This document shows, piece after piece, positions 7,803-26,848 of a stretch of DNA of 46,646 nt. The stretch spans positions 1 to 46,646 of the forward strand of contig NZ_LMQW01000015.1 in assembly GCF_001425485.1 (NCBI RefSeq). The letters are read 5' to 3'. This stretch comes from Aureimonas sp. Leaf427 (lineage in GTDB: Bacteria > Pseudomonadota > Alphaproteobacteria > Rhizobiales > Rhizobiaceae). Position 1 is the stretch's first letter, and every line of letters starts with the position of its first letter. Made by a program: the position numbers and the translations under genes. The notes under the pieces are model-generated. The model was not told the DNA's origin and did no database searches. It was given only the letters and a program-made list of their open reading frames with translations.

Positions 7803-7929
7803 ATTGGCCCCTCCAAGCATCAGACTTCGGTTTTATGGGACTTCACCAGTTCACCAAAAACAAAAATAGTAACGAGTGTGTAATCTTACAAAATTTGCAG
7901 CGCGGTCGATTAAAGCTTATTCAGCCTGC

Positions 7930-9716: not shown

Positions 9717-10160
9717 GCGCTGATCTCCCCCTGTTGCCAGGGGTGGGTAGCGCAGCATTGAGTCACGCAATAGCTGGCGGGTTCACTTCGGCTCTGGCTG
9801 TTGCAGCTAGGCACCGCAACGGTTTCGGGGCGGCGCCGGCTCTGAGGAATCGGGGGTGAAGGGCTGGGGCTTCGGTCCCGGCTGCTTCCGGTGGAGAGCC
9901 GACAGGCAGGTTCCGAGCGCATCAGGTCGGAAGCGGACCATTCCTCAAGACTTCGGCCGATGAATGCGGCTAACCCAGTCGGTGTGGTCAGCTTCAGTAG
10001 TGCAACGCCTCGACGAAAAGGTCGAAGACCGGCGATCTCGGACAAGAGGAGGGTGCCAACCACATCCTCGTCCGCGGCGACAGTCGCCGAACTCGCCGCC
10101 GCTTGGGGTGAAACTGCGCCCGTTTGGACGGCGAGGAACGCTCCGAAGTTACTCAAGCGT
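9717..10160. other. gene-poor stretch before the metabolic island
   Basis: Several frames are open across this region on both strands, but their composition (Ser/Arg/Pro-rich, no recognisable motif) and the lack of ribosome binding sites make me regard them as chance. It ends at the first of the four shared promoter elements (10169). It may be remnant DNA between the microprotein set and the LysR-linked island. Confidence 0.45.
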
Positions 10161-10168
10161 ACCGCCAT

Positions 10169-10212
10169 TCATAGACCAGACTTATAGCCGTATTCCGATT
10201 ACCTGGTCTAAT
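10169..10212 (+). promoter_or_regulatory. shared operator-promoter element 1 (decarboxylase-cupin genes)
   Basis: TCATA-N9-TATAG (10169-10187) is an imperfect dyad fitting a LysR-type T-N11-A box. Exactly 21 nt later comes TAAT (10209-10212), readable as the end of a -10 hexamer (TCTAAT). The same layout with the same 21-nt spacing is present at three other promoters in this window. The GTG of the decarboxylase gene is about 150 bp further on. Confidence 0.7.
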
Positions 10213-10362
10213 CCCCAGTCGGTGCTTCTCCTACGTTTCCAATAGTCCCTCGTGGTCACCGTGACGGCATGTCCAGTAGTCGTTCCTCGAGGGCCGGTTG
10301 GCCGGACAACGTCACTCCCTGGCAAAGCCGGAGAACCGACTGCTCTGGAAAGGAACAAGCCC

Positions 10363-11154
10363 GTGAAACTGCTTTCCGCCACCCTCATGTGCATCGCGCT
10401 CAGTGCCCCCGCTATCGCGCAAGGAGCGGCCGACATGCCCGCTCCCTTGCAAGGGGCCTCGGCCCTGTCTCACGCCGACATCCAGTCCGTCTCGCCCGCG
10501 CTCGCCAGATTTGGCCAGGAAGACATCGTTGAAGCCCTCTGGCAGCGTCCGCAGCTTTCGCGCCGCGACCGGGCACTCGTCACCGTGGCGATCCTCGTAG
10601 CCCGCAACCAGACAATGGATCTCGACCACTACCTGAACGTCGCCCTCGACGGTGGCGTGACACCACGCGAACTGTCCGAGGCTGTCACGCATCTGGCCTT
10701 CTACGCCGGCTGGTCGAACGCCACGGCTGCCGTCGCCGTCGCCAAGGACGTCTTCGCCTCGCGCGGGATCGGTGCCGACCAGTTGCCGGCGGCGTCCCCC
10801 GAGCTCCGCCCCGTGAACGAGCAGGCGGAGGCAAGCCGACAGGCGAGTGTGGAGGGACTGCTCGGCGCCGCAACGCCTGGCCTCGACCAGTTCACCACCG
10901 ATCCGCTCTTCCGGGATGTCTGGCTGAGGCCCGACCTGTCTCTGCGTGACCGGAGCCTCGTTACTATCACGTCACTCATGGCGAACGGTCAGGTAGCTCA
11001 GCTTTCCGCCCACCTGAACCGGGCCTTGGACAACGGCCTCAAGAAGGAAGAGGCCGGCGAGGTCGTCTCGCAGATCGCGTTCTACGCAGGTTGGCCGAAC
11101 GCCTTCTCCGCAGGGCCCGTCGTCGCGGAGGTCTTCAAGAGCCGACCCGACTGA
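10363..11154 (+). CDS. exported tandem carboxymuconolactone decarboxylase family protein
   Basis: A 263-residue protein with two CMD/AhpD-like domains. Domain 1 (about residues 60-140) has RRDRALVTVAILVARNQ, HYLNVALDGGVTPRELSEAV and HLAFYAGWSNA; domain 2 (about 175-258) repeats this as LRDRSLVTITSLMANGQ, HLNRALDNGLKKEEAGEVV and QIAFYAGWPNA. No AhpD-type Cys-x-x-Cys is present, so it fits the decarboxylase rather than the peroxidase subfamily. I choose the GTG at 10363, preceded by GAAAGGAAC, because it opens a Sec signal (KLLSATLMCIALSAPAIAQ); the long upstream extension has no protein character. It precedes a cupin gene by 60 bp in the same direction and is preceded by promoter element 1. 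The substrate is unknown; export is unusual for this family but common in this cluster type. Confidence 0.85.
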   Translation: MKLLSATLMCIALSAPAIAQGAADMPAPLQGASALSHADIQSVSPALARFGQEDIVEALWQRPQLSRRDRALVTVAILVARNQTMDLDHYLNVALDGGVTPRELSEAVTHLAFYAGWSNATAAVAVAKDVFASRGIGADQLPAASPELRPVNEQAEASRQASVEGLLGAATPGLDQFTTDPLFRDVWLRPDLSLRDRSLVTITSLMANGQVAQLSAHLNRALDNGLKKEEAGEVVSQIAFYAGWPNAFSAGPVVAEVFKSRPD

Positions 11155-11214
11155 CGGGCCTTACGCCTACCTGAACTTCGAGATTGACCCTGCTCCCAAC
11201 ACGAAGGACCCATC

Positions 11215-11679
11215 ATGAAGAAGACCCTAATGGCCGCTACGTTTGCTCTCGCGGGCGCCGCCTCTGCCGACGCGCAGGAAATCCAAGTGTTCCCGAGTGG
11301 TGCGTCGCCTTCGGTGACCGCCGATCCCAAGAACTTCTCCGGCCAAGTGATCATCGACCTCCCCGTGCCGTCCTCGGTCGAGGCGCCCGCTTCGCTCGGG
11401 CTGGTGAACTTCGCCCCCGGCGCCCGCACCGCGTGGCACACCCACCCTGTCGGGCAGACGTTGATCGTTACTGCGGGCAAGGGATGGGTGCAGCGGGATG
11501 GCCAGCCGCGCCAGGACATCAAGCCCGGCGACGTCGTGTGGATCCCAGCGGGGATCAAGCATTGGCATGGCGGGACTGACACGAACGCCATGAGCCACAT
11601 CGCGGTCACGTACGTCCGGGACGGCCAGAACGTCGACTGGATGGAGCTCGTGACCGACGAGCAGTACGCCGACCGCTGA
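11215..11679 (+). CDS. exported single-domain cupin protein
   Basis: A 154-residue beta-barrel protein with a Sec signal of about 20 residues (MKKTLMAATFALAGAASADA). Cupin motif 1 (APGARTAWHTHPVGQTLIV) and motif 2 (KPGDVVWIPAGIKHWHG) give the usual metal-binding His set. Cupins of this type often sit beside carboxymuconolactone decarboxylase and alpha/beta hydrolase genes, as here. A good ribosome binding site (GAAGGA) precedes the ATG, and it follows the decarboxylase gene with a 60-bp gap, so both should be driven from element 1. Role inferred: periplasmic metalloenzyme acting on a small oxygenated compound. Confidence 0.85.
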   Translation: MKKTLMAATFALAGAASADAQEIQVFPSGASPSVTADPKNFSGQVIIDLPVPSSVEAPASLGLVNFAPGARTAWHTHPVGQTLIVTAGKGWVQRDGQPRQDIKPGDVVWIPAGIKHWHGGTDTNAMSHIAVTYVRDGQNVDWMELVTDEQYADR

Positions 11680-11918
11680 GACAAGTCGCCGGAAGGTTGA
11701 TGGCCGTTCGGGCATTCACCTCGCGATGACGCTCCGGCGAGCCGGGGCGAAAGATGCAGGCTTCCTCGTCTTCTGCGCCTCGTGCATCCCGCTGATGGCC
11801 AGTACCGTGCGGGTCCTGCGCACGGTGATCGGATCAGGTTTCTCCCTCAGGCCGCGGGTCCGCGTCCTGCCTCAACGGGACAACGTTTGGAAAAGCCAAG
11901 CGATCACCGGAGACGGCG

Positions 11919-12809
11919 TCAGCTTCGATGGCGGAGTGCGTCCAGGACAAGCGAGAATGCGGCCGACGGCTGGCGGCGGCTGGGATAGTAGAGGAAGTAC
12001 CCGGGAAACGGATCGCACCAGTCCTGGAGGACGCTGACCAGATCCCCCGAGCTCACGAAAGGCTCGACGTACTCCTCAGGAAGATAGGCTAGGCCCACCC
12101 CCTCCAACGCTCCCAGGCGGGCCAGTGTGTTGGAGTTGACCAGAAGCTGGCCTTCCACGCGCACGTTCAAGGCACGTCCCGCCTTCTCGAACTCCCAGAC
12201 GGCCCATCCGCTGTCTGCCGTGTAGCGGAGGTTGATGCAGTTGTGTTCGGCCAGGTCGTGCGGGGTGATGGGCGGCTTGCGGGACTGGAAGTAGCCAGGC
12301 GATCCAACGATGGCCATCCGGGTGTCAGGGCCGATCCGCGCCGCCACCATGTCCTGCGCGACCGTCTCGCCCAGTCGGACGCCGGCGTCGAAGCGCTCGG
12401 CGACGATGTCGACGAACCCCGCGTTGACGCTGATCTCCACCCTAAGATCCGGGTAGTCCGGAAGAAGCTTGGCGACCGCCGGAAGGATGATGCCTTCGGC
12501 GGGCGTGTCGCCAACGGTGATACGCACCGTACCCGCGGGCTTGTCTCGGACGTCCGTCAGGGCGGAAAGACCTGTCTCGATCCCGTCGAAATGAGGCGAG
12601 ATGGCCCGGAGAAGGCGTTCTCCCGCCTCGGTCGTCGAAACGCTGCGCGTGGTCCTGTTCAACAGACGCACGCCGAGCCTCGACTCCAGCTCCCGCATCG
12701 TATGGCTCAGGGCCGGCTGCGAGACGCCAAGTTGCTTGGCCGCGCGGGTGAAGCTGCCGGCCCGGGCGACGGCCAGGAAGGCAACGAGATCGCCTACGTT
12801 CTCGCGCAA
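11919..12809 (-). CDS. LysR-family transcriptional regulator
   Basis: A 296-residue LTTR of normal length. The N-terminal winged helix (LVAFLAVARAGSFTRAAKQL, GVSQPALSHTMRELESRLG, RLLNRTTRSVSTTEAGERLL) is followed by the effector-binding domain (TVRITVGDTPAEGIILPAV; GFVDIVAERFDAGVRLGE; NTLARLGALEGVGLAYLPE). The C-terminal region has the F-x-x-Y-Y-P-S-R-R segment typical of the subgroup next to oxidoreductase and MFS genes. It is divergent from the hydrolase-SDR genes; promoter element 2 lies 4 bp before its start, so binding there could also repress its own gene. It is the best candidate regulator for all four elements, by proximity and site type (inference). Confidence 0.9.
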   Translation of the reverse strand: MRENVGDLVAFLAVARAGSFTRAAKQLGVSQPALSHTMRELESRLGVRLLNRTTRSVSTTEAGERLLRAISPHFDGIETGLSALTDVRDKPAGTVRITVGDTPAEGIILPAVAKLLPDYPDLRVEISVNAGFVDIVAERFDAGVRLGETVAQDMVAARIGPDTRMAIVGSPGYFQSRKPPITPHDLAEHNCINLRYTADSGWAVWEFEKAGRALNVRVEGQLLVNSNTLARLGALEGVGLAYLPEEYVEPFVSSGDLVSVLQDWCDPFPGYFLYYPSRRQPSAAFSLVLDALRHRS

Positions 12810-12812
12810 GAC

Positions 12813-12856
12813 TGATAATCCCTGTTTATAGCTCTATGCCAGATCTAGCGGCTAAT
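12813..12856 (+). promoter_or_regulatory. shared operator-promoter element 2 (LysR / hydrolase intergenic)
   Basis: TGATA-N9-TATAG (12813-12831) followed after 21 nt by TAAT (12853-12856). It is oriented towards the hydrolase gene, whose ATG is about 94 bp beyond the TAAT, and its left end is 4 bp from the LysR start codon. This position suits activation of the hydrolase genes together with autoregulation of the regulator. A looser CTATG/CATAG pair follows immediately. Confidence 0.7.
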
Positions 12857-12949
12857 TCCATAGGCGTACAGACGCTAGGTTTCTGATCGAAGGCCAATTC
12901 GCAGGTTGGTCGACATCGTTTTCATCATGAACTCGTCAGGAACCTTTCC

Positions 12950-14002
12950 ATGCACGCCACGATCCTGTCCCTCTCCATGCTTCTCGCATCCGCCTCTGTC
13001 GTCATGTTGCCGGATCGGCAGGCCTTCGCGCAGGACATGTCCAACGGTGCGGACAACTTCTACAAGAGCGACGCCGTAGACATGCAGAAGGTCTCCTTCC
13101 GCAACAAGCTCGGCATGAACGTCGTGGGCAACCTCTTCGTGCCGAAAGGCCAGGACCGCAGCACCCAAGCCCCGGCGATCATCGTCGGCCATCCGATGGG
13201 CGCGGTGAAGGAGCAGAGCTCCAACCTCTACGCGCAGAAGCTAGCCGAGCAGGGCTTCGTGACGCTATCGTTTGACCTGCCGTTCTGGGGCGAGAGCGAA
13301 GGTCAGCCACGCAACACTGTGGCGCCCGAGCTCTATGCCGACAGCTTCAGCGCTGCCGTGGACTTCCTTTCGACGCAGGCCTTCGTGAATGCCGGAAACA
13401 TCGGCGTCCTCGGTATCTGCGGCAGCGGAAGCTTCGCTCTGAGCGCAGCCCAGATCGATCCGCGGATGAAGGCGATCGCCACGGTCAGCATGTACGACAT
13501 GGGCGCCGCGAACCGCGACGGCCTGCGCAATGGCGTCACGCTCGACCAGCGCAAGGCGGCGCTAGCGGCGGCAGCCGAACAGCGTCTGGCCGAGTTCAAG
13601 GGGACGCCCGTCGCCTACAGGGGCGGCACGCTCACGGAACTCACGGCGGATGCCAACCCGATCCAGCGCGAGTTCTATGACTTCTACCGCACCCCGCGTG
13701 GCGAGTTCACGCCGCCCGGTCAGCCGGAGGTGCCGACTACGCAGCCGACGCTGTCGAGCAACGCGGCCTTCATGAACTTCTACCCCTTCGCCTCGATCGA
13801 GACGATCTCGCCGCGCCCGGTTCTCTTCATTGCCGGGAGCGAGGCGCATTCGATCGAGTTCAGCGAGGACGCCTACAAGCTCGCCGCAGAGCCGAAGGAG
13901 CTCGTAATCATCCCGGGGGCTGGCCATGTCGACCTCTACGACCGGACAACCCTCATCCCCTTCGACAAGCTGACCGAGTTCTTCCGCGGCAACCTGAGCT
14001 GA
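12950..14002 (+). CDS. exported alpha/beta hydrolase (dienelactone-hydrolase-like)
   Basis: A 350-residue alpha/beta hydrolase with a signal peptide (about 27 residues, ending QAFAQ). It shows the oxyanion segment IIVGHPMGAVKEQSS, SFDLPFWGESEG, the nucleophile elbow VLGICGSGSFALSAA, an acid-loop region FIAGSEAHSIEFSED, and the catalytic His in IIPGAGHVDLYD. The elbow reads G-I-C-x-S-G, so a Cys (as in dienelactone hydrolase) is at the nucleophile position; the family comparison is from memory. AGGAA precedes the ATG. It opens an operon-like run with the SDR and the cyclophilin-like gene (gaps about 101 and 48 bp) under element 2. Substrate unknown. Confidence 0.85.
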   Translation: MHATILSLSMLLASASVVMLPDRQAFAQDMSNGADNFYKSDAVDMQKVSFRNKLGMNVVGNLFVPKGQDRSTQAPAIIVGHPMGAVKEQSSNLYAQKLAEQGFVTLSFDLPFWGESEGQPRNTVAPELYADSFSAAVDFLSTQAFVNAGNIGVLGICGSGSFALSAAQIDPRMKAIATVSMYDMGAANRDGLRNGVTLDQRKAALAAAAEQRLAEFKGTPVAYRGGTLTELTADANPIQREFYDFYRTPRGEFTPPGQPEVPTTQPTLSSNAAFMNFYPFASIETISPRPVLFIAGSEAHSIEFSEDAYKLAAEPKELVIIPGAGHVDLYDRTTLIPFDKLTEFFRGNLS

Positions 14003-14103
14003 GATCCACCCTGCGGACGGACCAATTCCGGATCCGCCGCTTTGCGATGCACCGAAACGGAAGACGGCACATCGCACCAACCCACGATCCCAAAGGATAC
14101 AAC

Positions 14104-14853
14104 ATGTCCAACCGCTTCGCAGGCAAGGTCGCCCTCGTAACGGGCGCGGCCAACGGCATCGGCCGCGCCACCGCCCTAGCGTTCGCAGTCGAGGGGGCGC
14201 GGGTCGCCATCCTCGATCGCAGCGAGGATTCGCTTCGCAGCACCGCCGACGCCATCCGGAACGCGGGCGGGGAAGTCCTCGTCCTCGCCTGCGATGTCTC
14301 CCATCCGCAAGAGGTCGAGGTGGCGGTCGCACGGGTCGTCGAGAGGTTCGGACGGCTCGACTGTGCCTTCAACAATGCCGGCGTCGAGAACGAGGCCGCC
14401 CCGCTCCACGAGATCGAGCTCGAGGAGTGGGACCGCATCCTCGGCATCAACCTGCGTGGTACCTTCGTGTGCATGAAGCACGAGATCGCGCAGATGCTGC
14501 GTCAGGGCGGTGGGGTGGTGGTGAACACCTCGTCGGGCGCGGGCGTCCGCGGCGTCGCCGGCGGCGCGTCCTACTCGGCGTCCAAGCACGCCATGATCGG
14601 CATGACCAAGTCCGCCGCGCTCGACTACGCCAAGAGGAACATCCGGGTGAACTGCGTCCTGCCCGGCAATATCGACACGGAGATGATGGACCGCTTCACC
14701 GACGGCGACATCCAGAAGGCCATCGACCTCGAGCCAGTCGGTCGCCTTGGAAAGCCCGAGGAGATCGCGGAGGCAGTCCTGTGGATGTGCTCGGACCTCG
14801 GCGCCTTCGTGACCGGCGCCTCGATCGCCGTCGACGGTGGATGGTCGCTCTGA
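14104..14853 (+). CDS. SDR family NAD(P)-dependent oxidoreductase
   Basis: A classical short-chain dehydrogenase of 249 residues. It has the cofactor motif ALVTGAANGIGRATA, an Asp at the end of strand 2 (AILDRSED, favouring NAD), NNAGVENEA, the catalytic Ser in VVNTSSGAGVRG, Y-x-x-x-K in ASYSASKHAMIG, NCVLPGNIDTEM and the C-terminal GASIAVDGGW. I start at ATG 14104, not the in-frame ATG at 14047, since the product then begins just before the first strand. The gene lies between the hydrolase and the cyclophilin-like gene on the same strand. It would act in the cytoplasm, unlike its exported neighbours. The exact alcohol or ketone substrate cannot be told. Confidence 0.9.
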   Translation: MSNRFAGKVALVTGAANGIGRATALAFAVEGARVAILDRSEDSLRSTADAIRNAGGEVLVLACDVSHPQEVEVAVARVVERFGRLDCAFNNAGVENEAAPLHEIELEEWDRILGINLRGTFVCMKHEIAQMLRQGGGVVVNTSSGAGVRGVAGGASYSASKHAMIGMTKSAALDYAKRNIRVNCVLPGNIDTEMMDRFTDGDIQKAIDLEPVGRLGKPEEIAEAVLWMCSDLGAFVTGASIAVDGGWSL

Positions 14854-14901
14854 CTGTCGCGGCCTGGAGGTCGCGAGAGGACATCGGGAAAGGTACCCAT
14901 C

Positions 14902-15315
14902 ATGCGCAGACGTCACATCGCCACCGCCATCCTCACTTTATTCATCACGGAACCCGCCATGGCCCAGCAGAGCATCCAGATCACGTCCCAATGGGGTGAC
15001 GTGACAGCAGAGCTTGCCGACAACGACGCCGCCCGCACGCTCGCGGAAAGGCTGCCGCTTACGATCCGGATGAGCGATCATCTTCGCCAGGAGAAGACGG
15101 GCGACCTGCCGTCGCCGCTGCCGGAAGGCTCCCGCCAGCGCGACTTCTCCCCGGGAACGCTCGGGCTCTGGGGATCGGGCGACTTCGTGATCTACTATCG
15201 GGGTGGACGCGTTCCCCTGCCGGGCATCGTGATCCTCGGCAAGGTCACTGGAGACGTCTCGATCTTTGATCGCCCAGGCGAGATCACCATCCAACTGAAG
15301 CCGCTGGCACCGTAA
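14902..15315 (+). CDS. exported cyclophilin-like fold protein
   Basis: A 137-residue product with a Sec signal (ILTLFITEPAMAQQ) and the cyclophilin-like (DUF-type) fold: ITSQWGDVTAELADNDAARTL, LPLTIRMSDHL, FSPGTLGLWGSGDFVIYYRGG and PGIVILGKVTGDV. This family is distinct from true peptidyl-prolyl isomerases, and its members often sit beside SDR, cupin and alpha/beta hydrolase genes in Proteobacteria. A good ribosome binding site (AAAGG) precedes the ATG. It is probably the last gene of the run starting at 12950. Role unknown. Confidence 0.8.
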   Translation: MRRRHIATAILTLFITEPAMAQQSIQITSQWGDVTAELADNDAARTLAERLPLTIRMSDHLRQEKTGDLPSPLPEGSRQRDFSPGTLGLWGSGDFVIYYRGGRVPLPGIVILGKVTGDVSIFDRPGEITIQLKPLAP

Positions 15316-15348
15316 CGGGCGTCCCGCCACTGAAGACGGTCGGCATAC

Positions 15349-16806
15349 GTGAAATGGCCTCTGGCAGTCGACGGACAGCAGTTCGCAAAATGCCAGCTCC
15401 GCCAAGCCGAAGCCGTTCAACTGCTCGTCGCCAAGAGCGAGGATCAAGTTTTGTCTGCGAACAAGCCGGGGCGAAACGACGAGGAAGCCGCAGTGGTCGG
15501 TGACCCCAGACGCGACCGTCAGGTCAATACAGTTGCGTTCGCCCTGAGCCGGGCAGAGCGCAACGGTTTCAGGATCGCCGTCATCGGTCGGACGATCGCC
15601 ATCATGGCGATCGCTCTGGCCTCCCTGTTCGCATTCTACTTTCCGATCAACGTCGCCGTGGCATTGTCTACGGCAATGATCGCGGTCGGTGGGCTCGCCT
15701 CGCTCCTGGCAGTCGGCACCCGCTACGAAATGGCGACGAGGTTTGCGCTCTTCGCGTTCGATGCGGGCGCGGTAACGTGTCTCCTGGCGTTCGTCCCGCT
15801 GAGCAGCGGAGACGACATCCCCCAGAACCTGGTATTTCTGACCAGTTCCGCCCAGCACTACTATCTGGTCATCGCCGCATCCGCCCTGACGCTGTCACCG
15901 ACCCTCGTCCTGTGGACGGGAGCCTGGGCCGTCTGCGGTCTCCTCTTCGCGACTGGATGGATCGTGCATGGCATGGAGCAGGTTCTGACCTACAGCGACC
16001 TGCCGATCGCACCAACGCGCGACGTCTACTTTCAAATCGTGCTCAGCCCGAACTTCATCGGCATTCCATCGAGGTTGCAGGAAGCCTTGATCATCGCGAT
16101 GGTGACCGCAACGGCTGCCCTTGCCGTCCATCGCGCCAGGCAGGTCGTGAAAGATCATGCGAATGCCGATGCGAGCCATCGCCATGTTCGCAATCTCTTC
16201 CGACGCTACGTGCCCGCGCCCGTACTGCGGGAACTGCTCGACGAAGGCCATCTCGTTCCGCAGACGAGGGAAACGACCCTGCTGTTCGCGGACATAGAGG
16301 GCTTCACGCGCCTGTCGGAGACGATGGCTCCCGTCCAGATCGTATCTATCCTGAACGAGCTGTTCACCGCGATCACGGGCATCGTCGATCAACACGACGG
16401 CATCGTCATCAACTACGTGGGCGACGCCGTCATCGCGTCCTTCAACGCTCCGCTTCCAACCGAAAACCACCCCGACAAGGCAATCGAGGCGTCGAGGCAG
16501 ATTCTAGCGATGGTGGAAGAGCATCGGTTCGGTGGCGTGGCGATCCTCCTCAGGATTGGCATCGCCACCGGCAGCGTGGCGGCCGGAACGGTCGGTGCCG
16601 ATGAACGGCAGGTCTACACACTCTACGGAGATGCGGTGAATTTGTCCCAAAGGCTTCAAGAGTTGAACAAGGTGCAGGGCACCAGATGCCTCATCGCGGG
16701 AAGTACCGTCGGCATGACCCTCAAAGACCATCGCTTACAAAGTCTGGGCATGGTCCAGATACGCAATCTCTCCGCGCCGACGGAGATATTTGGGTACGCT
16801 GATTGA
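15349..16806 (+). CDS. class III adenylate/guanylate cyclase with membrane domain
   Basis: The C-terminal ~190 residues form a class III nucleotidyl cyclase domain: RYVPAPVLRELLDEG, TTLLFADIEGFTRLSETM (first metal Asp), INYVGDAVIASFNAP (second metal Asp), IGIATGSVAAGTVG and VYTLYGDAVNLSQRLQ. The N-terminal ~270 residues have about six hydrophobic segments (from about residue 80), so it is an integral membrane sensor cyclase. The start is uncertain: the frame opens with GTG 15349, but the first ~50 codons do not look like protein and a later GTG (15495) is more likely. It follows the cyclophilin-like gene by 33 bp. It produces cAMP or cGMP; substrate choice is not readable here. Confidence 0.8.
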   Translation: MKWPLAVDGQQFAKCQLRQAEAVQLLVAKSEDQVLSANKPGRNDEEAAVVGDPRRDRQVNTVAFALSRAERNGFRIAVIGRTIAIMAIALASLFAFYFPINVAVALSTAMIAVGGLASLLAVGTRYEMATRFALFAFDAGAVTCLLAFVPLSSGDDIPQNLVFLTSSAQHYYLVIAASALTLSPTLVLWTGAWAVCGLLFATGWIVHGMEQVLTYSDLPIAPTRDVYFQIVLSPNFIGIPSRLQEALIIAMVTATAALAVHRARQVVKDHANADASHRHVRNLFRRYVPAPVLRELLDEGHLVPQTRETTLLFADIEGFTRLSETMAPVQIVSILNELFTAITGIVDQHDGIVINYVGDAVIASFNAPLPTENHPDKAIEASRQILAMVEEHRFGGVAILLRIGIATGSVAAGTVGADERQVYTLYGDAVNLSQRLQELNKVQGTRCLIAGSTVGMTLKDHRLQSLGMVQIRNLSAPTEIFGYAD

Positions 16807-16815
16807 ATGTGGGGC

Positions 16816-16851
16816 GGCGGGCGCTTGGACCCCTGGTCCGGCGCGCCCGCC
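16816..16851. terminator. strong hairpin after the cyclase gene
   Basis: GGCGGGCGC (16816-16824) pairs with GCGCCCGCC (16843-16851), and within it GGACC (16827-16831) pairs with GGTCC (16835-16839) around a CCT loop. It lies between the plus-strand cyclase and the converging paoC remnant and probably stops transcription from both sides, although no T-tract follows. Confidence 0.6.
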
Positions 16852-16856
16852 TTCGC

Positions 16857-17098
16857 TCAGGCGACGTCCGGAAGGTCCTCGATCAGCTTGTCCAGCGTGA
16901 TCGGATAGGAACGGACACGGATGCCCGTCGCGTTGTGGACCGCGTTGGCGACGGCCGAGCTGACGCCGCATAGTCCAAGCTCGCCGATGCCCTTGGCCTT
17001 CATCGGCGACGAGCGTGGATCGGTCTCGTCGAGGAAGATCACCTCCTGGTGCGGGATGTCCGCGTGGACGGGCACCTCGTAGCCCGCGAGGTCTTGGT
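16857..17098 (-). pseudogene. 3' fragment of a paoC-like molybdenum subunit gene
   Basis: The last ~80 codons of a second copy of the aldehyde oxidoreductase large subunit. It reads LAGYEVPVHADIPHQEVIFL, DPRSSPMKAKGIGELGLCGV and RVRSYPITLDKLIEDLPDVA, and ends with the same stop position as intact paoC. By eye there are about 16 mismatches in ~240 bp to 18917-19155, nearly all in the distal 110 bp and mostly silent. Homology ends abruptly near 17098. Together with the intact 3' end it forms a direct repeat around the metallophosphoesterase-tautomerase segment. Confidence 0.85.
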
Positions 17099-17238
17099 TA
17101 AACCTACAATCTTTCGCCTCACTCCTCTGGCAGGCGGCGTGTGCGCCTCACGATCATGGGACCCGGACTCGACAGCGGCTTACCAGTACCGAGCCCCCTC
17201 GCGCCGCGAAGTCGCGTGACGCCCACCGAAAGCCCGGA

Positions 17239-18354: not shown

Positions 18355-18628
18355 CACCCCCGCAGAGAACCCCCGACAGCATGATGTTCGCTAACCAGCG
18401 GTGGCGCAGCGCCTCGACCATAAGCGTGAAGGTGGGCGACACGACGGCGTCCTGCGACGTCTGCTCTGTCAACATGCCGCCCGTGAGCGGACTGGTATCG
18501 ATCCACCCCAAGCGATCGTCCGGACCGACCCGTGCTAAACAAGATCTGAAAGGCCGAGTCCTTCGCCAACGGTCAGCCGTTGTACGGGCTCGCCGACGAA
18601 CACACTGGATCGACCGGAAGGAATCGAG

Positions 18629-18859
18629 ATGCCGCATGTCATCGTGAAGCTCACAGCGGGACGGTCCGAAGAGATGAAGCAGGCGCTAGCCCAGAAATTG
18701 GCGGAAGCACTCACCACGACGATCGGCTGCGGCGCAGAGGTTGTATCGGTCGCCATAGAGGACGTGCCGATAGCTGACTGGACCGAGGCAGTCTACATCC
18801 CTGAGATCGAGCCACAGTTCGACCGACTTTACATCAAGCCCGGCTACGGACGGGCCTAA
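18629..18859 (+). CDS. 4-oxalocrotonate tautomerase family protein
   Basis: A 76-residue tautomerase. After Met removal the product begins with the catalytic Pro (MPHVIVKLTAGRSEEMKQAL), followed by LAEALTTTIGC and a strand around VVSVAIEDVPIADW. Length and pattern fit the small hexameric 4-OT family, which converts enol and keto forms of aromatic-degradation products. AAGGA precedes the ATG. It lies between the metallophosphoesterase and the end of paoC, convergent with the latter and separated by a hairpin. Its chemistry fits the decarboxylase and hydrolase of the same island (inference). Confidence 0.85.
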   Translation: MPHVIVKLTAGRSEEMKQALAQKLAEALTTTIGCGAEVVSVAIEDVPIADWTEAVYIPEIEPQFDRLYIKPGYGRA

Positions 18860-18877
18860 CCAGCATTTCAACGCCAC

Positions 18878-18903
18878 GGCGCACGCGGAAGGCCGCGCGC
18901 GCC
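18878..18903. terminator. hairpin between the converging tautomerase and paoC genes
   Basis: GGCGCACGCGG (18878-18888) and CCGCGCGCGCC (18893-18903) pair with one mismatch around an AAGG loop. It sits 19 bp after the tautomerase stop and 10 bp after the paoC stop on the other strand, as expected for a bidirectional terminator. Confidence 0.6.
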
Positions 18904-18912
18904 GATTGTTCC

Positions 18913-21138
18913 TTAGGCCACGTCCGGGAGGTTCTCGATCAGCTTGTCCAGCGTGATTGGATAGGATCGGACGCGGATACCCGTTGCATTGTAGACCGCA
19001 TTGGCGACGGCCGCGCCGACGCCGCAGAGTCCAAGCTCGCCGATGCCCTTGGCCTTCATCGGCGACGAGCGTGGATCGGTCTCGTCGAGGAAGATCACCT
19101 CTTGGTGCGGGATGTCCGCGTGGACGGGCACCTCGTAGCCCGCGAGGTCGTGGTTGACGAAGAAGCCGTATCGCGTGTCGACCGCAAGCTCTTCCATCAG
19201 CGCGCCGCCGACACCCATGGTCATCGCGCCGATCACCTGGCTGCGAGCGGTCATCGGGTTGAGGATCCGCCCGGCAGCGCAGACCGAGAGCATGCGGCGC
19301 ACGCGCACCTCCGCCGTCGCCACGTCGACGCCGACCTCCACGAAATGCGCGCCAAAGGTCGACTGCTGCTCGGCGTCGGAAAAGGTTTGGTCGAACTCGA
19401 TCTTGTCCTCCGCGACGATCTCGCCATCGGATGCCGCGTCAGCGAGCTGAACCGACCGATTGCCGGCCCGGACCTCGCCGTCGGCGAAAGTGAGGTCGTC
19501 GGCCGAGTTGAAGCCGAGTTTAGCGGCGATTGCCTCGCGCAGCTTCACGCAGGCGGCATAGACGCCAGCGGTGGCCGAATTCGCGCCGAACTGCCCGCCG
19601 GACCCCGCCGAGACGGGGAAGCTGGAGTCGCCGAGGTTCACTGCGACGCGCGACAGCGGCAGGCCCATCATCTCCGCCGCCGTCTGCGCGATGATCGTGT
19701 ACGAGCCCGTCCCGATGTCGGTCATGTCGGTCTCGACGGTGACGACGCCATCTTGCCCCAGCCGGACGCGAGCCCCGGAGGGAAGAGTCAGGTTGTTGCG
19801 GAACGCGCTGGCGACGCCGATGCCGACCAACCACTGTCCGTCGCGCACTTGGCCTGGTCGAGGATTGCGGGCGTTCCAGCCGAAGCGTTCCGCGCCTTGG
19901 CGCAGGCATTCCACCAACTGACGCTGCGAGAAGGGTCGCTCCGGCTTCATCGGATCGACCTGCGTGTCGTTGATGGCCCGGAACTCGATGGGGTCCAGCT
20001 CGAGCTTCTCGGCCATCTCGTCCATGGCGATCTCAAGCGCCATCAGGCCGGGGGCTTCGCCCGGGGCGCGCATGGCGTTGCCCTCCGGCAGATCCATCTC
20101 GGCCATCCGCAGGGAAGCAAGGCGATGGGCGCCGGCATAGAGGAGCTTCGTCTGCGCCACCGCCGTTTCCGGATCGCCGCCCTTGAGGTTGCCCGACGTG
20201 CTTTCATGCGCGATCGCTGCGATGCGACCGTCTCGGCCTGCACCGATGCGGACGCGCTGGATGGTGGCGGGGCGATGGGTCGTGTTGTTGGCAATCAGTG
20301 GGCGCGTCAGCGTCACCTTGACCGGGCGTCCCGCAGCCTTCGCGCCGAGCGCGGCGAGCACCGCGTCAGTCCGCAGAAACAGCTTGCCGCCGAAACCGCC
20401 TCCGATGAAGGGCGAGATCAGACGCACCTTCTCCTTCGGCACGTTCAGCGTCGCCGCGAGATCGGTCAAACCCCAGTCGATCATCTGGTTCGACGTCCAG
20501 ACGGTCAGCTCGTCGCCGTCCCAGCGTGCGGTCGACGCATGGGGCTCCATCGCCGAATGGCTCTGGTCCGGCGTCGTGTACTGCTCGTCGAGCTTGACCT
20601 CCGCTTCGGTGAAGGCCTGCTCGAAATTGCCAATCCGTTCCTCGCCGGGCGTGGCGCTTCCCTCGTCGCTATTGCCCGGGACAAGCGGCGCATCCTTGGC
20701 GAGCGCCTCCAGAGCGAAGCGCCCGTCTTCGCTGATGTAGTCGATGCGCATGAGGCTGGCGGCATCCCGCGCTTCCTCGAAGCTCCGCGCAACGACCAGC
20801 GCGATGGCCTGGTGGTAGTGGTCGACGGCCGGGCCGCCGAGGAGCTTAGCGACGTTGAACTTGCCCTTGCCGAGTTCACCGGCGCTCTCGGCCGTGACGA
20901 TCGCGATTACACCCGGCGCACGTTTCGCGTCATCGAGATGAAGAGCAGCGATGCGGCCTTTGGCGATGGCGCTCCCCACGACATATCCATAGGCGGCGTC
21001 GGGCACGACATCGTGGCGCTCATAGGCATAAGGCGCGGTGCCCGTCACCTTGTGGCGCCCGTCGATGCGCTCGTGCGGCTTGCCGACGACCTTCATCTGG
21101 TCGATCGGATTGGTTGTGGCGGCTGTATCGAACTTCAT
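18913..21138 (-). CDS. paoC: aldehyde oxidoreductase molybdenum-binding subunit
   Basis: A 741-residue large subunit of the xanthine-oxidase family, the usual length for PaoC/YagR. Visible segments are KVTGTAPYAYERHDVVPDAA near the start, DQSHSAMEPHASTARWDGD, FIGGGFGGKLFLRTDAVLAA (molybdopterin contact), NAMRAPGEAPGLMALE, TDIGTGSYTIIAQTAAEMMG, GSGGQFGANSATAGV, and the C-terminal KAKGIGELGLCGVGAAVANA, which includes the Glu of the active site. It oxidises aldehydes at the molybdenum centre and passes electrons through PaoA and PaoB. It is 4 bp after paoB in an operon preceded by element 3. Its last ~80 codons are duplicated at 16857-17098. Confidence 0.9.
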   Translation of the reverse strand: MKFDTAATTNPIDQMKVVGKPHERIDGRHKVTGTAPYAYERHDVVPDAAYGYVVGSAIAKGRIAALHLDDAKRAPGVIAIVTAESAGELGKGKFNVAKLLGGPAVDHYHQAIALVVARSFEEARDAASLMRIDYISEDGRFALEALAKDAPLVPGNSDEGSATPGEERIGNFEQAFTEAEVKLDEQYTTPDQSHSAMEPHASTARWDGDELTVWTSNQMIDWGLTDLAATLNVPKEKVRLISPFIGGGFGGKLFLRTDAVLAALGAKAAGRPVKVTLTRPLIANNTTHRPATIQRVRIGAGRDGRIAAIAHESTSGNLKGGDPETAVAQTKLLYAGAHRLASLRMAEMDLPEGNAMRAPGEAPGLMALEIAMDEMAEKLELDPIEFRAINDTQVDPMKPERPFSQRQLVECLRQGAERFGWNARNPRPGQVRDGQWLVGIGVASAFRNNLTLPSGARVRLGQDGVVTVETDMTDIGTGSYTIIAQTAAEMMGLPLSRVAVNLGDSSFPVSAGSGGQFGANSATAGVYAACVKLREAIAAKLGFNSADDLTFADGEVRAGNRSVQLADAASDGEIVAEDKIEFDQTFSDAEQQSTFGAHFVEVGVDVATAEVRVRRMLSVCAAGRILNPMTARSQVIGAMTMGVGGALMEELAVDTRYGFFVNHDLAGYEVPVHADIPHQEVIFLDETDPRSSPMKAKGIGELGLCGVGAAVANAVYNATGIRVRSYPITLDKLIENLPDVA

Positions 21139-21142
21139 GAGA

Positions 21143-22093
21143 TCAAATCCTCGCCTGCGCCATCACCGCGCCGAGCGTGCGCTCGACCAGCGGGATCTTG
21201 AACGCGTTGTGCTCGGTGGGTCTGGCGTCGGCGAGAAGCCGCCCGGCGGCGGCCTTCGCGCCGTTGGAGAACGCGGCGTCCGCTTCCTCCAAACGCCATG
21301 GCTTGTGCGCGATGCCACCGACAGCGAAGCGGCCTGTGCCGTCCGGCTGCACGACGGCTGCGACGGAGACGACCGCAAAGGCGTAGGACGCGCGGTCGCG
21401 GACCTTGCGGTAGATCTGCGTGCCGCCGAGGGGCTTGGGCAGCGTCACCGCCGTGATCAGTTCCCCGGGCTCCAGTGCCGTCTCAATGTGCGGCGTGTCG
21501 CCGGGCAGGCGGTGGAAGTCGGCCATCGCGATCGCACGCGTCTGCCCATCCGGCTTCACGGTCTCGACGGTTGCGTCGAGCACCCGGAGCGCCACGTTCA
21601 TGTCCGAGGGGTTCGTCGCGATGCAGGCCTCGCTGACGCCGACAACGGCGAGCTGGCGCGAATAGCCTTCGAGCGCCGAGCAGCCGGAGCCGGGCCGGCG
21701 TTTGTTGCAGGGCATGTTGGTGTCGTAGAAATACGGGCAGCGCGTGCGCTGAAGGAGGTTGCCTGCGGTCGTCGCGCGGTTGCGAAGCTGGCCCGACGCG
21801 CCGGCAACGATCGCCCGCGTCAACACGCCATAGTCGCGCTTCACGCGCTCGTCGTTGGCAAGGTCCGTGTTGCGCACAAGGGCGCCGACGCGTAGGCCGC
21901 CGTCCTCGGTCGCGTTGATCGTGTCGAGCTTCAGGCCGTTCACGTCGATGAGGTGCTGCGGGGTCTCGATCTGGAGCTTCATCAGGTCGAGAAGGTTCGT
22001 GCCGCCCGCGATGAACTTCGCGCCGGGCTTGGCACTTGCGGCCTGCGCGGCTTCCGCAGGGGATGTCGCGCGCTCGTAAGTGAAGGACTTCAT
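21143..22093 (-). CDS. paoB: aldehyde oxidoreductase FAD-binding subunit
   Basis: A 316-residue protein of the CO-dehydrogenase medium-subunit (FAD_binding_5) family. FAD-binding segments are [20 protein letters not shown] and [17 protein letters not shown], followed by [18 protein letters not shown]. In E. coli PaoB this Cys-rich part carries an extra 4Fe-4S cluster, and the cysteines here (RCPYF, MPCNKR, SGCSAL) fit that. I start at ATG 22093 because it overlaps the paoA stop by 4 bp; the upstream extension is not needed. It transfers electrons between PaoA and the acceptor. Confidence 0.9.
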
Positions 22094-22725
22094 GCGGGCC
22101 TCCCGGCGACTTCGGTCATCGCTTCGGCAATGTTGGAATAGGCCCCGCATCGGCAGATGTTGCCGCTCATGCGCTCGCGCAGCTCGGCGTTCGACGCTTC
22201 CGGCGCCGCCGCCAGATCAGCCGTGACGTGGCTCGGAATGCCCGCCTTCACCTCGGCGAGGACAGCGACGGCCGAGACGATCTGGCCCGGCGTGCAGTAG
22301 CCGCACTGGTAGCCATCGTGCTTCACGAAGGCATCCTGCATCGGGTGGAGCTTGTCGGGCGTGCCAAGTCCCTCGATCGTCGTCACCTCATCGCCCTCGT
22401 GCATCACGGCAAGCGACAGGCAGGAGACCATGCGGCGGCCGTTCACCATCACCGTGCAGGCCCCGCACTGGCCGTGGTCGCAGCCCTTCTTCGAGCCTGT
22501 CAGGTGCAGGTGCTCGCGCAGCGCGTCGAGGAGCGTCGTCCGCAGGTCAAGGTCCAGCTCGCGCCGCTCGCCGTTGACCGTGAAGGACACATTCGAGAGG
22601 ACCGCGGTCCCGGTGTCCGAAGCTTCCTGTGCCATGGCGGTTCCCGTCAGCGCCGTGGAGGCCACGCAAGCGGACGCGCTCACCATCAGCTCCCGGCGAT
22701 TGAGTTCAAGGTCGGTGGACTTCAT
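22090..22725 (-). CDS. paoA: aldehyde oxidoreductase 2Fe-2S subunit with Tat signal
   Basis: A 211-residue iron-sulfur subunit. From ATG 22725 it begins with a twin-arginine signal ([20 protein letters not shown], then TAMAQ), so the assembled complex should be moved folded into the periplasm, as for E. coli PaoABC. The plant-type 2Fe-2S motif [18 protein letters not shown] with a further Cys in MVSCLSL, and the second cluster motif ([14 protein letters not shown], then [17 protein letters not shown]), are complete. The open frame extends upstream but the signal fixes the start. First gene of paoABC; element 3 lies 140-180 bp upstream. No XdhC/PaoD maturation gene is seen in the window. Confidence 0.9.
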
Positions 22726-22861
22726 CGCTGTCTCCGTCGTTGAGCGCTCTCGGCGCCGTTCAGTTCCGAGTGGCCGCACGCCGGATGCGTGGCGGGCGCG
22801 GGGACCATCGGGGTCAGAGATTCCCAAGATCAGTCTGTAACTGGTCTAAACTGGGTGCTCG

Positions 22862-22905
22862 ATTACCCCTCAAACGCTGATTGCTGTCATAGACGTGGGT
22901 TATGA
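22862..22905 (-). promoter_or_regulatory. shared operator-promoter element 3 (paoABC)
   Basis: Read towards paoA, TCATA-N9-TATGA occupies 22905-22887, and after exactly 21 nt TAAT follows at 22865-22862. It matches element 4 especially well around the dyad (both have TGCTGTCATA on the plus strand). The TAAT is about 136 bp before the paoA start. Confidence 0.75.
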
Positions 22906-23006
22906 ATGGGGTTTGGAACGAGCGACGCCTCGGCGCGCCCACGCGGGTCATGAGACATCCGTCATGCGACCGCCCGGTCTCGGATACGAGAAATGTCGCG
23001 CTGCCC

Positions 23007-23081
23007 TCAGGACGCCGTAACGGCGTATCGCAGGTGCAGAAGCTCGTGATCGAGCTGCTCGAAGCCAATGAGCGAAAGCTA
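23007..23081 (-). other. in-frame continuation of the reductase gene behind the amber stop
   Basis: After TAG (23081-23079) the same frame continues for 23 codons (LSLIGFEQLDHELLHLRY, then AVTAS) to TGA at 23009-23007. This is what the end of RibD-C family proteins looks like (L-x-x-x-x-x-L-x-x-G-x-x-x-L-R-Y). So the reductase has most likely lost its last strand by a single nonsense change. Confidence 0.65.
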
Positions 23082-23711
23082 GACTCTACCCTTCAGGCCT
23101 TCGTCCCCGTAGGCGACGAACCCCTGCTCGTTGATGCGGCCGACTAGCGTGGGAGCGACGATCAAGCTCAGCTCGTCCACGAGGCCAGCCGCGAAGAACG
23201 AGCCGTTGATCCCGCCGCCGCCCTCGAGCAGCAGGCGCTCGATCCCGAACTCCGCGCGAAGCGTTTTCAAGGACTCGAACAGATCGATCTGCCGATCGCC
23301 GGCGACGACGTATGAGATCCCGTCCGAGGCCAGTTCCGCCAGATGCGCATCGAGGACCTCGCTACCCAGGAGCACGATCACCGCGTCGCCATTGATGTCC
23401 GCCTTCCTGAAGTGGAGCTTGGCGGACGGGTCGACGGCGATCGCGTAGCGTTCGGCTCCGCGGTTCGCGATGTGGATCGGCCGCTCGATGCTGGCGTGGT
23501 CCGACGGCGGGTGCGGCTCGCCCTTGGCCATCTCCGCCATGGTCACGCGACCGACGAGCCAGGCATCGCCGCCCAAAGTCTCGTGAACCGCCTCATAGGC
23601 GGCGTCCCACTCCTTCTTCGCTCCGACGGGGCTTTCAGTGTAGTGGCTAGGATGCAGCCCCCCGTCGAGGGACGACATCATGTGGCAGATCACTCGGGGA
23701 CGTTCGCTCAT
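23079..23711 (-). CDS. dihydrofolate-reductase-like (RibD C-terminal) protein, truncated by TAG
   Basis: A 210-residue RibD-C/DfrA-like reductase, probably a general NADPH-dependent oxidoreductase rather than true DHFR. Segments are RVICHMMSSLDGGLHPSHY, DAWLVGRVTMAEMAKGE, VVAGDRQIDLFESLKTL and ERLLLEGGGGINGSFFAAGL with LVDELSLIVAPTLVG. The frame stops at TAG 23081-23079 just where relatives have a last beta strand, and that strand is still present in frame beyond the stop (see the next entry). AAGGAG precedes the ATG. It follows the MFS gene by 70 bp, so both are probably transcribed from element 4. The truncated product might retain some fold. Confidence 0.8.
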   Translation of the reverse strand: MSERPRVICHMMSSLDGGLHPSHYTESPVGAKKEWDAAYEAVHETLGGDAWLVGRVTMAEMAKGEPHPPSDHASIERPIHIANRGAERYAIAVDPSAKLHFRKADINGDAVIVLLGSEVLDAHLAELASDGISYVVAGDRQIDLFESLKTLRAEFGIERLLLEGGGGINGSFFAAGLVDELSLIVAPTLVGRINEQGFVAYGDEGLKGRV

Positions 23712-23781
23712 GGCATGCTCCTTCTCGCGTCGATGGCGAGACAGCAGCGGCAGCTCGCCCGTTCATCTGTCTCGCTAACTG

Positions 23782-24984
23782 TCAGGCAGCCTTCGCGGCT
23801 CCAGCCTTCCGGGCCATGACCGCCATTCCCGCGGAACCGCTGAGGAGAACGGCGGCAAGGAGGAAGGTGCTCCTGTAGCCGCTGTAATCGAAGAGCATGC
23901 CGCCTGCCGTGGCACCGAGGGTGATGGCGAGCTGTATGACAGCGACCATGAGGCCGCCTCCCGCATCCGCGTCCTCCGGTACCGTCCGGGAGAGCCAGGT
24001 GCCCCAGCCTACGGGGGCCGGCACGCTGATGAGCCCCCACAGGCCGAGAAGGATTGCCGTCGCAATGGTCGAGGCGCCGAGGAGGACCAGCGCGACGGCG
24101 ATCGCCGCCATTCCCAACGGGATGAGGATAAGGACGGAGAAAAGGCGCGAGTTCAGGATTCCCCCGATCACCGAGGTACCCGCGAGACCCGCGACACCGA
24201 TGACGAGAAGCAGGAGCGACAGGACCGAGATGTCGACCCGGGTAACGGTTTCGAGGAAGGGCCGCAGGTAGGTGAAGAGGGCGAACTGGCCCATGAAGAG
24301 CAGGAAGATGGCGGCCATGCCATACGCAACCGCGGGATTCCGGAGCAGACGGAAGACCTTGCCCGCTGGCTTTGCCTCCGGCTCCGGCGGAATGGAGGGC
24401 ATCGAGAGGAGCTGCCAGACCAACGCGATAACGGCGAGCGGGACCACCGCGAAGAAGGCTCCACGCCAACCGATGATGCTGCCGAGGAAGCTTCCCAGCG
24501 GCGCGGCGACCGTAGCCGCAAGCGCGTTTCCCCCGTTCAGCATCGCCAGCGCCTTCGGCACCGCGTCGCTCGGCACCAGGCGCATGACGGTCGCGGTGCT
24601 CATGGACCAGAAGCCGCCTATGGCGACGCCGAGCAGCGCACGCCCGGCCATCATCACCATATAGGTCGGCGCGAGCGCCACGATCGCCCCGGACACGATC
24701 AGGAGCGACGTGAAGAAGAGGGTTACGGTCCGTCGGTCGAAGCGAGTGACGAGGGACGAGCTGAAAAGGCTGGTCAAAACGGCGAAGACGCCCGAGATCG
24801 AGATCGCCTGCCCAGCCTGTCCTTCTGTGATCCTCAGCGTCTCGGCGATGGGGGTCAGCAGGCTGACGGGCAGGAACTCGGATGCGATGAGGACGACGAC
24901 GCCGAGTGACATCGACAGGACAGCGCCCCAGGCGGCGGGCCCGGCAGCAGATGCCGGCACCTCGGTTTGGATGGCTATGGACAT
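23782..24984 (-). CDS. MFS transporter, drug/metabolite efflux type
   Basis: A 400-residue, 12-helix major facilitator of the DHA1 (AraJ/YdhP/NepI-like) group. Seen are SEFLPVSLLTPIAETLRITE in helix 1 and the following loop, the motif-A-like loop between helices 2 and 3 (SLVTRFDRRTVTLF), GRALLGVAIGGFWSMSTATV (helix 4) and helix 5 with NGGNALAATVAAPLGSFLG (motif C-like). Relatives export purine nucleosides, arabinose or drugs. The ribosome binding site is weak. Promoter element 4 lies about 130-170 bp upstream, and the reductase gene follows. In the context of the island it probably removes the toxic substrate or product (inference). Confidence 0.9.
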   Translation of the reverse strand: MSIAIQTEVPASAAGPAAWGAVLSMSLGVVVLIASEFLPVSLLTPIAETLRITEGQAGQAISISGVFAVLTSLFSSSLVTRFDRRTVTLFFTSLLIVSGAIVALAPTYMVMMAGRALLGVAIGGFWSMSTATVMRLVPSDAVPKALAMLNGGNALAATVAAPLGSFLGSIIGWRGAFFAVVPLAVIALVWQLLSMPSIPPEPEAKPAGKVFRLLRNPAVAYGMAAIFLLFMGQFALFTYLRPFLETVTRVDISVLSLLLLVIGVAGLAGTSVIGGILNSRLFSVLILIPLGMAAIAVALVLLGASTIATAILLGLWGLISVPAPVGWGTWLSRTVPEDADAGGGLMVAVIQLAITLGATAGGMLFDYSGYRSTFLLAAVLLSGSAGMAVMARKAGAAKAA

Positions 24985-25111
24985 GATGGTCTTTCAATTT
25001 GACGGCGGTCGCATGCGCGGGAGGCACGCAGCCGCCTCTCGTTCGTCACGCGCTTCTCCGGCTTTACCGCCGAAGTGTCTGTGTTGGAGATAAGCCCCGA
25101 GGGGGAGCGGC

Positions 25112-25155
25112 ACTATCCTAGAAGATCGACATGCTGTCATAAATGCAGGTTATCA
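25112..25155 (-). promoter_or_regulatory. shared operator-promoter element 4 (MFS-reductase genes)
   Basis: Read towards the MFS gene, TGATA-N9-TATGA occupies 25155-25137, and after exactly 21 nt TAGT follows at 25115-25112. On the plus strand it shares TGCTGTCATA and GGTTAT with element 3 in the same register. The MFS start is about 127 bp further on. Confidence 0.7.
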
Positions 25156-26428: not shown

Positions 26429-26848
26429 GTGCTCGTCCGTCCGTTGGTTGATCGAGACCATCTCGGTGCCAACGTACGCGGGCGCGTCAGTTCGAATTAG
26501 AGGGCCAAAGCGGCATAGACCGATAACCAGAGCTTATTAGTGAGAGGCCTGTCGAACCCTCGTTTTGGAAGGTGCCGAAAGCTGAGAACGGCTCACGCTA
26601 ATGTCTGCTTCCGGCGTGGCAAAAGAGATTTCCAAACGACTGAGAAGGGTCGAAAGCGGTCTGATCTGTTCCGCGAGCGCTTTCCTCTGGATCAGAAAAG
26701 TTTTCGGTCCCCTCGCGGGCAGCCGTCGCGACAGCGACTGCGGCAGGACATATCCTGTATCCCGCCTGGGCCTGTTGCTGGGCAACAAGCATGAGCGGAG
26801 GCTGCGATACGATTTCTCGACCGTTTCTTCCGCCCCCCGCAGGCAGCA
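26429..26848. other. intergenic region with open but unconvincing frames
   Basis: This lies between the P460 gene start and the next plus-strand gene. Frames on both strands stay open, but their Arg/Ser-rich content is not protein-like. Near 26790 an ATG-AGC could have been the original start of the next gene if one G were missing (see that entry). No hairpin or operator stands out. Confidence 0.4.

Follow-up and report, generated by a model that had tools for sequence, protein, structure and literature searches.

A predicted LysR regulon of five operator-promoters with a fixed 21-nucleotide step in Aureimonas sp. Leaf427

The DNA considered here, termed the window, is a stretch of 46,646 nucleotides (nt) from the alphaproteobacterium Aureimonas sp. 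Leaf427 (NZ_LMQW01000015.1, positions 1 to 46,646), and it constitutes contig C15 of that genome in its entirety. It encodes a LysR-type transcriptional regulator, recognized by PF00126 (E=4.8e-24) and PF03466 (E=1.3e-34), and carries five copies of an element in which a 19-nt dyad is followed, 21 nt further on, by TAAT or TAGT. The five elements are likely to be the operator-promoters of this single LysR, each serving one group of genes. The regulator and the genes under the sites are the following.

11919..12809, minus strand: LysR-type regulator, proposed regulator of all five sites (Pfam HTH_1 and LysR_substrate; 78 related loci; Pro32)
10363..11154, plus strand: carboxymuconolactone-decarboxylase-family (CMD) protein, copy 1 (Pfam PF02627, E=8.4e-37)
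11215..11679, plus strand: cupin, (R)-mandelonitrile-lyase-like, copy 1 (Pfam PF07883; NCBIfam NF049940, 164 bits, cut-off 140)
12950..15315, plus strand: alpha/beta hydrolase, SDR oxidoreductase and cyclophilin-like genes, copy 2 (Pfam)
18913..22827, minus strand: paoABC, molybdenum aldehyde oxidoreductase, copy 3 (Pfam; PaoA NF008514, 361 bits, match from residue 35)
23079..24984, minus strand: MFS transporter and RibD_C-domain protein, copy 4 (Pfam; NCBIfam)
25230..26461, minus strand: cytochrome-P460-like and DUF4405 genes, copy 5 (Pfam PF16694, E=5e-9; PF14358, E=2e-11)

The true start of paoA is probably near 22725, with 22827 being only the mechanical end of the open reading frame. For the MFS transporter, the best NCBIfam model is NepI, with a score under that model's cut-off. 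The sites themselves comprise the following features, with scores from a matrix described below.

10169..10187, plus strand: dyad copy 1, TCATA-N9-TATAG, predicted LysR recognition site of the CMD-cupin operon; 46-nt element, 35.7 bits
10208..10213, plus strand: CTAATC block of copy 1 at the 21-nt step, predicted -35/activation site
10231..10236, plus strand: predicted -10 hexamer CTACGT of copy 1, a conserved block in relatives
12813..12831, plus strand: dyad copy 2, TGATA-N9-TATAG, between lysR and the hydrolase operon; 41.9 bits
12852..12857, plus strand: CTAATT block of copy 2, predicted -35/activation site
12875..12880, plus strand: predicted -10 hexamer CTAGGT of copy 2, a conserved block in relatives
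22887..22905, minus strand: dyad copy 3, TCATA-N9-TATGA, before paoABC; 18.7 bits
22861..22866, minus strand: GTAATC block of copy 3, predicted -35/activation site; no clear -10 at positions 63-68
25137..25155, minus strand: dyad copy 4, TGATA-N9-TATGA, before the MFS and RibD_C genes; 21.9 bits
25111..25116, minus strand: ATAGTG block of copy 4, predicted -35/activation site
25088..25093, minus strand: predicted -10 hexamer TTATCT of copy 4
26521..26539, minus strand: dyad copy 5, TAATA-N9-TATCG; element 26494-26539, 30.5 bits with the independent matrix
26495..26500, minus strand: CTAATT block of copy 5, predicted -35/activation site
26472..26477, minus strand: predicted -10 hexamer GTACGT of copy 5

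The first four dyads were reported in a first-pass annotation of this DNA, and all four are present on the reported strands, each with TAAT or TAGT starting exactly 21 nt beyond it. These four read TSATA-N9-TATRR and the fifth TAATA-N9-TATCG; ATA at positions 3-5 and TAT at positions 15-17 are common to all five. The T-N11-A box typical of LysR sites, which the annotation had also proposed, is found as T4-N11-A16 in every window dyad, and a LysR gene does start 4 bp from one copy (TTG start at 12809, dyad from 12813). Copy 5, which precedes the cytochrome-P460-like and DUF4405 genes and has the same 21-nt step, was overlooked. The earlier idea of one regulon over 15 kb holds in that a single LysR regulon is the best reading, but it needs amending to five sites, not four, over ~16.4 kb.

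That such spacing is unexpected by chance is borne out by the counts. Within the window, the dyad pattern has 5 matches (one dyad matches on both strands), where 100 shuffles give an expectation of 0.01. The full pattern of dyad, 21-nt step and TAAT or TAGT has 4 matches in the whole genome (5,432,809 bases), all inside the window, against 0 for the reversed control, whereas for the isolated dyad with one mismatch allowed, the 56 matches in this genome barely exceed the 43 of its control. Across 151 genomes of the family, that of Leaf427 included, the strict pattern has 23 matches, 19 of which lie outside the Leaf427 genome, against 6 for the control. This A-type pattern is thus uncommon in the family and its exact TSATA form a local variant; a looser element is the widespread form. 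With <=3 mismatches allowed, the looser pattern has 7 matches in the Leaf427 genome (four are window sites, copy 3 is missed, and three lie outside the window), 11 in genome G151 and 3 in genome G152. The same-genus genome G088 has no match to either the strict or the looser pattern, and the control has 0 matches in all four genomes.

The geometry is also evident among relatives of the window LysR. Loci were fetched for the best 78 of 533 relatives (56-87% identity), from records named Alpha-, Beta- and Gammaproteobacteria and one Solirubrobacterales, many of them metagenome bins; the nearest relatives, from Aureimonas and Aurantimonas, are 86-87% identical. Most have a 19-nt dyad before the LysR start, usually TSATGA-N7-TCATRR read away from lysR, and the dyad spacer, read on the LysR strand, is often AGGA, potentially a ribosome-binding sequence. 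At copy 2, the opposite strand of the spacer reads CAGGGA, which could likewise serve lysR as a ribosome-binding sequence. A dyad matrix was seeded with four window dyads and refined on the 60 nt before each LysR start without using the spacing, and the distance from dyad to TAAT or TAGT was measured only once this matrix had been refined. On the divergent strand, this distance is exactly 21 nt at 62 of the 78 loci, and any other distance occurs once or twice.

A 46-position matrix was built from 74 of the 78 elements, with four left out as too short or lacking a dyad. Above 6 bits, this matrix recovers from the window the four sites first noted and the fifth, with the scores listed above (from 12813 at 41.9 bits, through 10169, 26539 minus and 25155 minus, to 22905 minus at 18.7 bits). 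In 1,328,789 bases of related loci, it has 25 matches above 20 bits, not counting the region upstream of the query LysR itself, and some of them adjoin other LysR genes; the reversed matrix has 2 matches above 8 bits and 0 above 10 bits in the same bases. When the dyad alone is scanned (>14 bits), 64 of 112 matches adjoin a LysR start, 55 of those 64 with TAAT or TAGT at 21; among the 48 away from a LysR start, 13 have it at 21, and two other distances are seen once each. Control stretches from the Leaf427 genome (18 in all) contain no element above 10 bits, and two stretches picked from it for holding elements do show them.

The first-pass annotation took TAAT or TAGT for the -10 box, and this is very probably wrong as judged from sequence conservation. 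Aligned over 150 nt, 68 LysR-divergent promoters have a further conserved block at positions 63-69: TANNT starts at 64 in 39 of them, the next best position is 63 with 5, and the mean elsewhere is 0.26. Similarly, among 20 elements away from a LysR start, TANNT is at 64 in 10, at 63 in 4 and nowhere else within 47-83. The block at 63-68 (CTAGAT, CTAAAT, CTATCT and similar in relatives) lies 17 nt beyond CTAATC and is present in four of the five window sites (copies 1, 2, 4 and 5). The same gap separates the two hexamers of the Sinorhizobium promoter consensus, CTTGAC-N17-CTATAT, as given in PMC2873474. Because a conserved -10 hexamer stands 17 nt beyond it, the CTAATC block would occupy the -35/activation position, with the dyad centre near -65, and the predicted transcription start should lie ~31 nt after TAAT rather than ~7. 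A recognition site near -65 and an activation site near -35 are seen in this way in the relatives and in four of the five window sites, copy 3 being the exception. PMC11602165 describes a LysR layout with a recognition binding site (RBS) and activation binding sites ABS(I) and ABS(II) near -65, -35 and -10.

The opposite strand of the element may contain the regulator's own promoter. In 46 of 72 LysR-adjacent elements, positions 30-35 on that strand agree with TATAAT at four or more of its six bases, against 5 of 20 other elements. A full second dyad, GATTA-N7-TAATC (T31-N11-A43), was considered. The window sites all preserve TAAT or TAGT, whereas GATTA is present in copy 1 only, so the left half of this dyad may chiefly reflect the regulator's own -10 on the opposite strand. 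Consensus matches at 33-35 also drop from LysR-adjacent to other elements. The copy 2 dyad lies 4 nt from the lysR start, just downstream of the lysR -10 candidate, and since it covers the translation start, binding there should repress lysR.

The genes near these elements recur as families. Divergent from LysR, the three nearest relatives each have a different gene, for an SDR in L034, for a hydrolase in L035 and for an MFS protein in L036, and L034 has extra elements before paoA and before a cupin gene. Relatives of window proteins in the 78 loci include cupin (40), SDR (22), CMD (18), MFS (12), hydrolase (8) and paoA (8), followed by the rarer paoB (5), paoC (5), cyclophilin-like (5), P460 (4), RibD_C (4) and DUF4405 (3). 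In comparison, 18 control stretches of 20 kb have SDR 2, paoA 2, paoC 2 and 0 of the other families. The CMD protein was not found in the same-genus genomes G088 or G168 (at 1e-40). Given the families of the target enzymes, a response to reactive carbonyls or related compounds is suggested: the five operons are of a detoxification type, and their enzymes may handle such compounds.

The same gene families are also found near elements on two other contigs of the Leaf427 genome, C34 and C49. On C34 (L171), an element at 10896-10941 (minus strand), in which G-N11-C replaces T-N11-A, separates a LysR paralogue with 53% identity from divergent pao-like genes, and relatives of P460 and DUF4405 lie ~7-8 kb off. 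On C49 (L174), two back-to-back elements with CATG half-sites (12310-12355, minus strand; 12504-12549, plus strand) stand beside a second CMD-cupin pair, and a second paoABC (paoB 91%) lies ~4-7 kb from them. At E 1e-15, nothing related to the window LysR is encoded in the 20 kb stretch of C49; its elements are operators whose regulator is not nearby.

Besides copy 2, which adjoins lysR, copy 1 is the only window site that faces a regulator gene, here reduced to a relic. In two relatives (L035 and L134), the CMD-cupin pair faces, across a like element, an intact LysR gene, here termed LysR2, whose product is 57-58% identical to the window LysR. At the same place in the window is an open reading frame (9713-10168) without a family match in Pfam or NCBIfam, and within it two fragments resemble LysR2.

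10069..10168, minus strand: LysR2 relic, first ~100 nt, directly beyond the copy 1 dyad; in-register match to L134
9997..10039, minus strand: LysR2 relic, last part, 43 nt, 79% to L134; blastn E=6.6e-4

Against the L134 gene, the start of the relic scores 42, compared with a maximum of 29 in 200 shuffles, and blastn gives E=1.9e-4 for window 10069-10214, the element included. The relic also exceeds its shuffles against LysR2 of L035 (37 vs a maximum of 31). Its DNA match is not significant against the window LysR (29 vs 30), the LysR of L034 (29 vs 37) or that of L137 (21 vs 27). The fragments match both ends of the L134 gene, so LysR2 seems to have lost most of its middle, with the operator left in place. 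A weak Phage_integrase match (E=0.003, under the Pfam cut-off) at window 7876-8820 on the plus strand ends ~1.2 kb before the relic.

L035 and L134 have TCATC as the left half-site of this element, where copy 1 of the window has TCATA; the surviving LysR's own dyad has TGATA. The recognition helix of the window LysR has Pro32 and His36. Of 76 relatives with a dyad, nine have A at position 5, and six of these nine carry Pro32, against 0 of the remaining 67; the count ignores kinship. One tentative account, more doubtful than not, is regulon capture: LysR2 would have been lost by internal deletion, its operator would have changed from TCATC to TCATA, the neighbouring LysR would now run five operons, and residue 32 would help set base 5. 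This account draws on one genome. Six further relatives (L075, L078, L080, L082, L107 and L108) have TSQSALS-type or TSQSSLS helices followed by RRLET, paired with G5/T15 dyads, a possible third half-site class.

A single LysR acting at all five elements is the most probable explanation, and its mechanism can be sketched. A LysR dimer would hold the 19-nt dyad, whose centre would lie near -65 relative to the target transcript, while a second dimer would touch the CAT and CTAATC blocks, which start a few nt and ~20 nt further, with CTAATC at -35. RNA polymerase would use the CTANNT hexamer 17 nt beyond CTAATC. The 21-nt step would be fixed by the need for the tetramer to span, in register, the distance between its anchor site and the -35 region. 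At copy 2, where the dyad covers the lysR translation start, binding would also repress lysR. We infer that the window LysR binds all five sites and that, with an effector, it activates rather than represses, switching on the CMD-cupin, hydrolase-SDR-cyclophilin-like, paoABC, MFS-RibD_C and P460-DUF4405 operons.

Several observations weigh against this explanation or parts of it. The 78 loci were chosen by similarity and so are not independent, and 16 of them lack TAAT or TAGT at 21 (including L058, which is truncated at a contig end, and L083 and L085, where no credible dyad precedes the start used). Copies 3 and 4 have the lowest matrix scores, and the near-identical paoABC on C49 lacks an element in the ~250 nt that the contig retains upstream of paoA. 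At positions 63-68, copy 3 shows no CTANNT; since it shares CAGTTTAGAC, just before the -10 position (window 22830-22866), with the A. pseudogalii pao promoter (L034 4184), paoABC may start from a shifted -10. The -10 candidate of the window lysR, TAGATC, matches TATAAT at 3 of 6 bases. The family controls come from the Leaf427 genome alone, and the 78 loci differ in length. As for residue 32, three of the six rows with Pro32 and A5 are L034-L036; A5 occurs with Ser32 in L061, L062 and L104 (L061 and L104 have AGA, not ATA), and Ser32 is likewise the residue of the C34 paralogue, whose operator has A5 and T15. In L035 and L134, LysR2 combines Pro32 with C at position 5, and the strongest association is with Gln36 (7 of 9 vs 1 of 67), where the window LysR has His36 instead.

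Three alternatives were considered. If TAAT or TAGT were the -10 box, the dyad would overlap the -35 region near -41 and transcripts would start ~7 nt after TAAT. TAAT is indeed among the best-conserved positions (41-44, 1.4-1.9 bits) and resembles a -10 core; none of the five window sites has lost TAAT or TAGT, and positions 63-68 of copy 3 offer no alternative -10. However, placing the dyad at -41 cannot explain the block at 64, whose CTANNT follows CTAATC with the Sinorhizobium spacing (PMC2873474), and the -35 reading agrees with the position of LysR sites described in PMC11602165; a -10 role is accordingly improbable. Chance similarity of AT-rich intergenic DNA has some appeal in that the motif is short and degenerate and the strict pattern also occurs in AT-rich stretches of small family genomes. 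With 0.01 dyads expected in the window, no genome control matches and a matrix from other genomes that recovers the sites, its probability is negligible, and a chance origin was rejected on the shuffles, the reversed control, the 21-nt distance in relatives and the independent matrix scan.

Several LysR paralogues, rather than one regulon, might also account for the sites: copy 1 would once have belonged to LysR2, and copies 3-5 perhaps to LysRs elsewhere. The LysR2 relic at copy 1 fits this, as does the divergent LysR that the CMD-cupin pair has of its own in L035 and L134, and the 53% paralogue on C34 faces pao-like genes across a dyad with A5 and T15. Yet LysR2 is down to two recognizable fragments, and the C34 paralogue, the other close LysR of the genome, has Ser32 and the operator TCAGA-N9-TCTAA, whose AGA/TCT differs from the ATA/TAT of the five window dyads at positions 4 and 16. 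Besides C34, the Leaf427 genome has seven further LysR relatives at E up to 1e-30, among the matches listed, and all are at 35% identity or less. A set of separate regulators is thus unlikely, though less so than the -10 role of TAAT.

Under the single-regulator reading, a LysR without a found description gains a defined operator, a list of five target operons and a testable hypothesis that links a base to a residue. The locus suggests how a LysR system with one promoter may grow into a local regulon through repeated operators and the loss of a sister regulator. The likely misreading of a -35/activation block as a -10 box, corrected here, bears on how genomes are scanned for such promoters. 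If regulon capture did occur, operator identity would be partly readable from the regulator sequence, with Pro or Ser at residue 32.

The promoter architecture itself is already known, though its layout here is unusually clear, and no description of the window LysR, its operator or its targets was found among the titles and abstract starts listed from open-licence papers. The best NCBIfam model for this LysR is YafC of E. coli (NF040888), but at 142 bits it falls far under the cut-off of 470, and YafC was rejected as an equivalog; the region upstream of yafC in E. coli K-12 has no element (best -0.2 bits). By sequence, the closest solved relative is CrgA of Neisseria meningitidis (PDB 3hhg, 108.2 bits), with 3mz1 at 108.1. 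The mdaB product is a redox enzyme, and the CrgA/MdaB system answers an electrophile. CrgA binds a T-N11-A site in the crgA/mdaB promoter region and can act as repressor or activator, according to PMC6422896. Its likeness to the window LysR is known from sequence alone; the similarity is low, and the target genes differ.

According to PMC5002191, CTATA-N9-TATAG is the extended LysR motif, and the inverted repeat IR1 lies downstream of or over the regulator's own -10. OccR, IlvY, OxyR and CynR, as portrayed in PMC5002191 and PMC11602165, resemble the present system in having a T-N11-A dyad of the CTATA-N9-TATAG type near -65 with a second contact near -35, a conserved distance between the two sites, and a divergent regulator with the dyad at its own start. 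Unlike in those systems, the second site here is mainly a one-sided CTAATC block, and the element stands at four further promoters, three of which face no LysR gene and one a relic.

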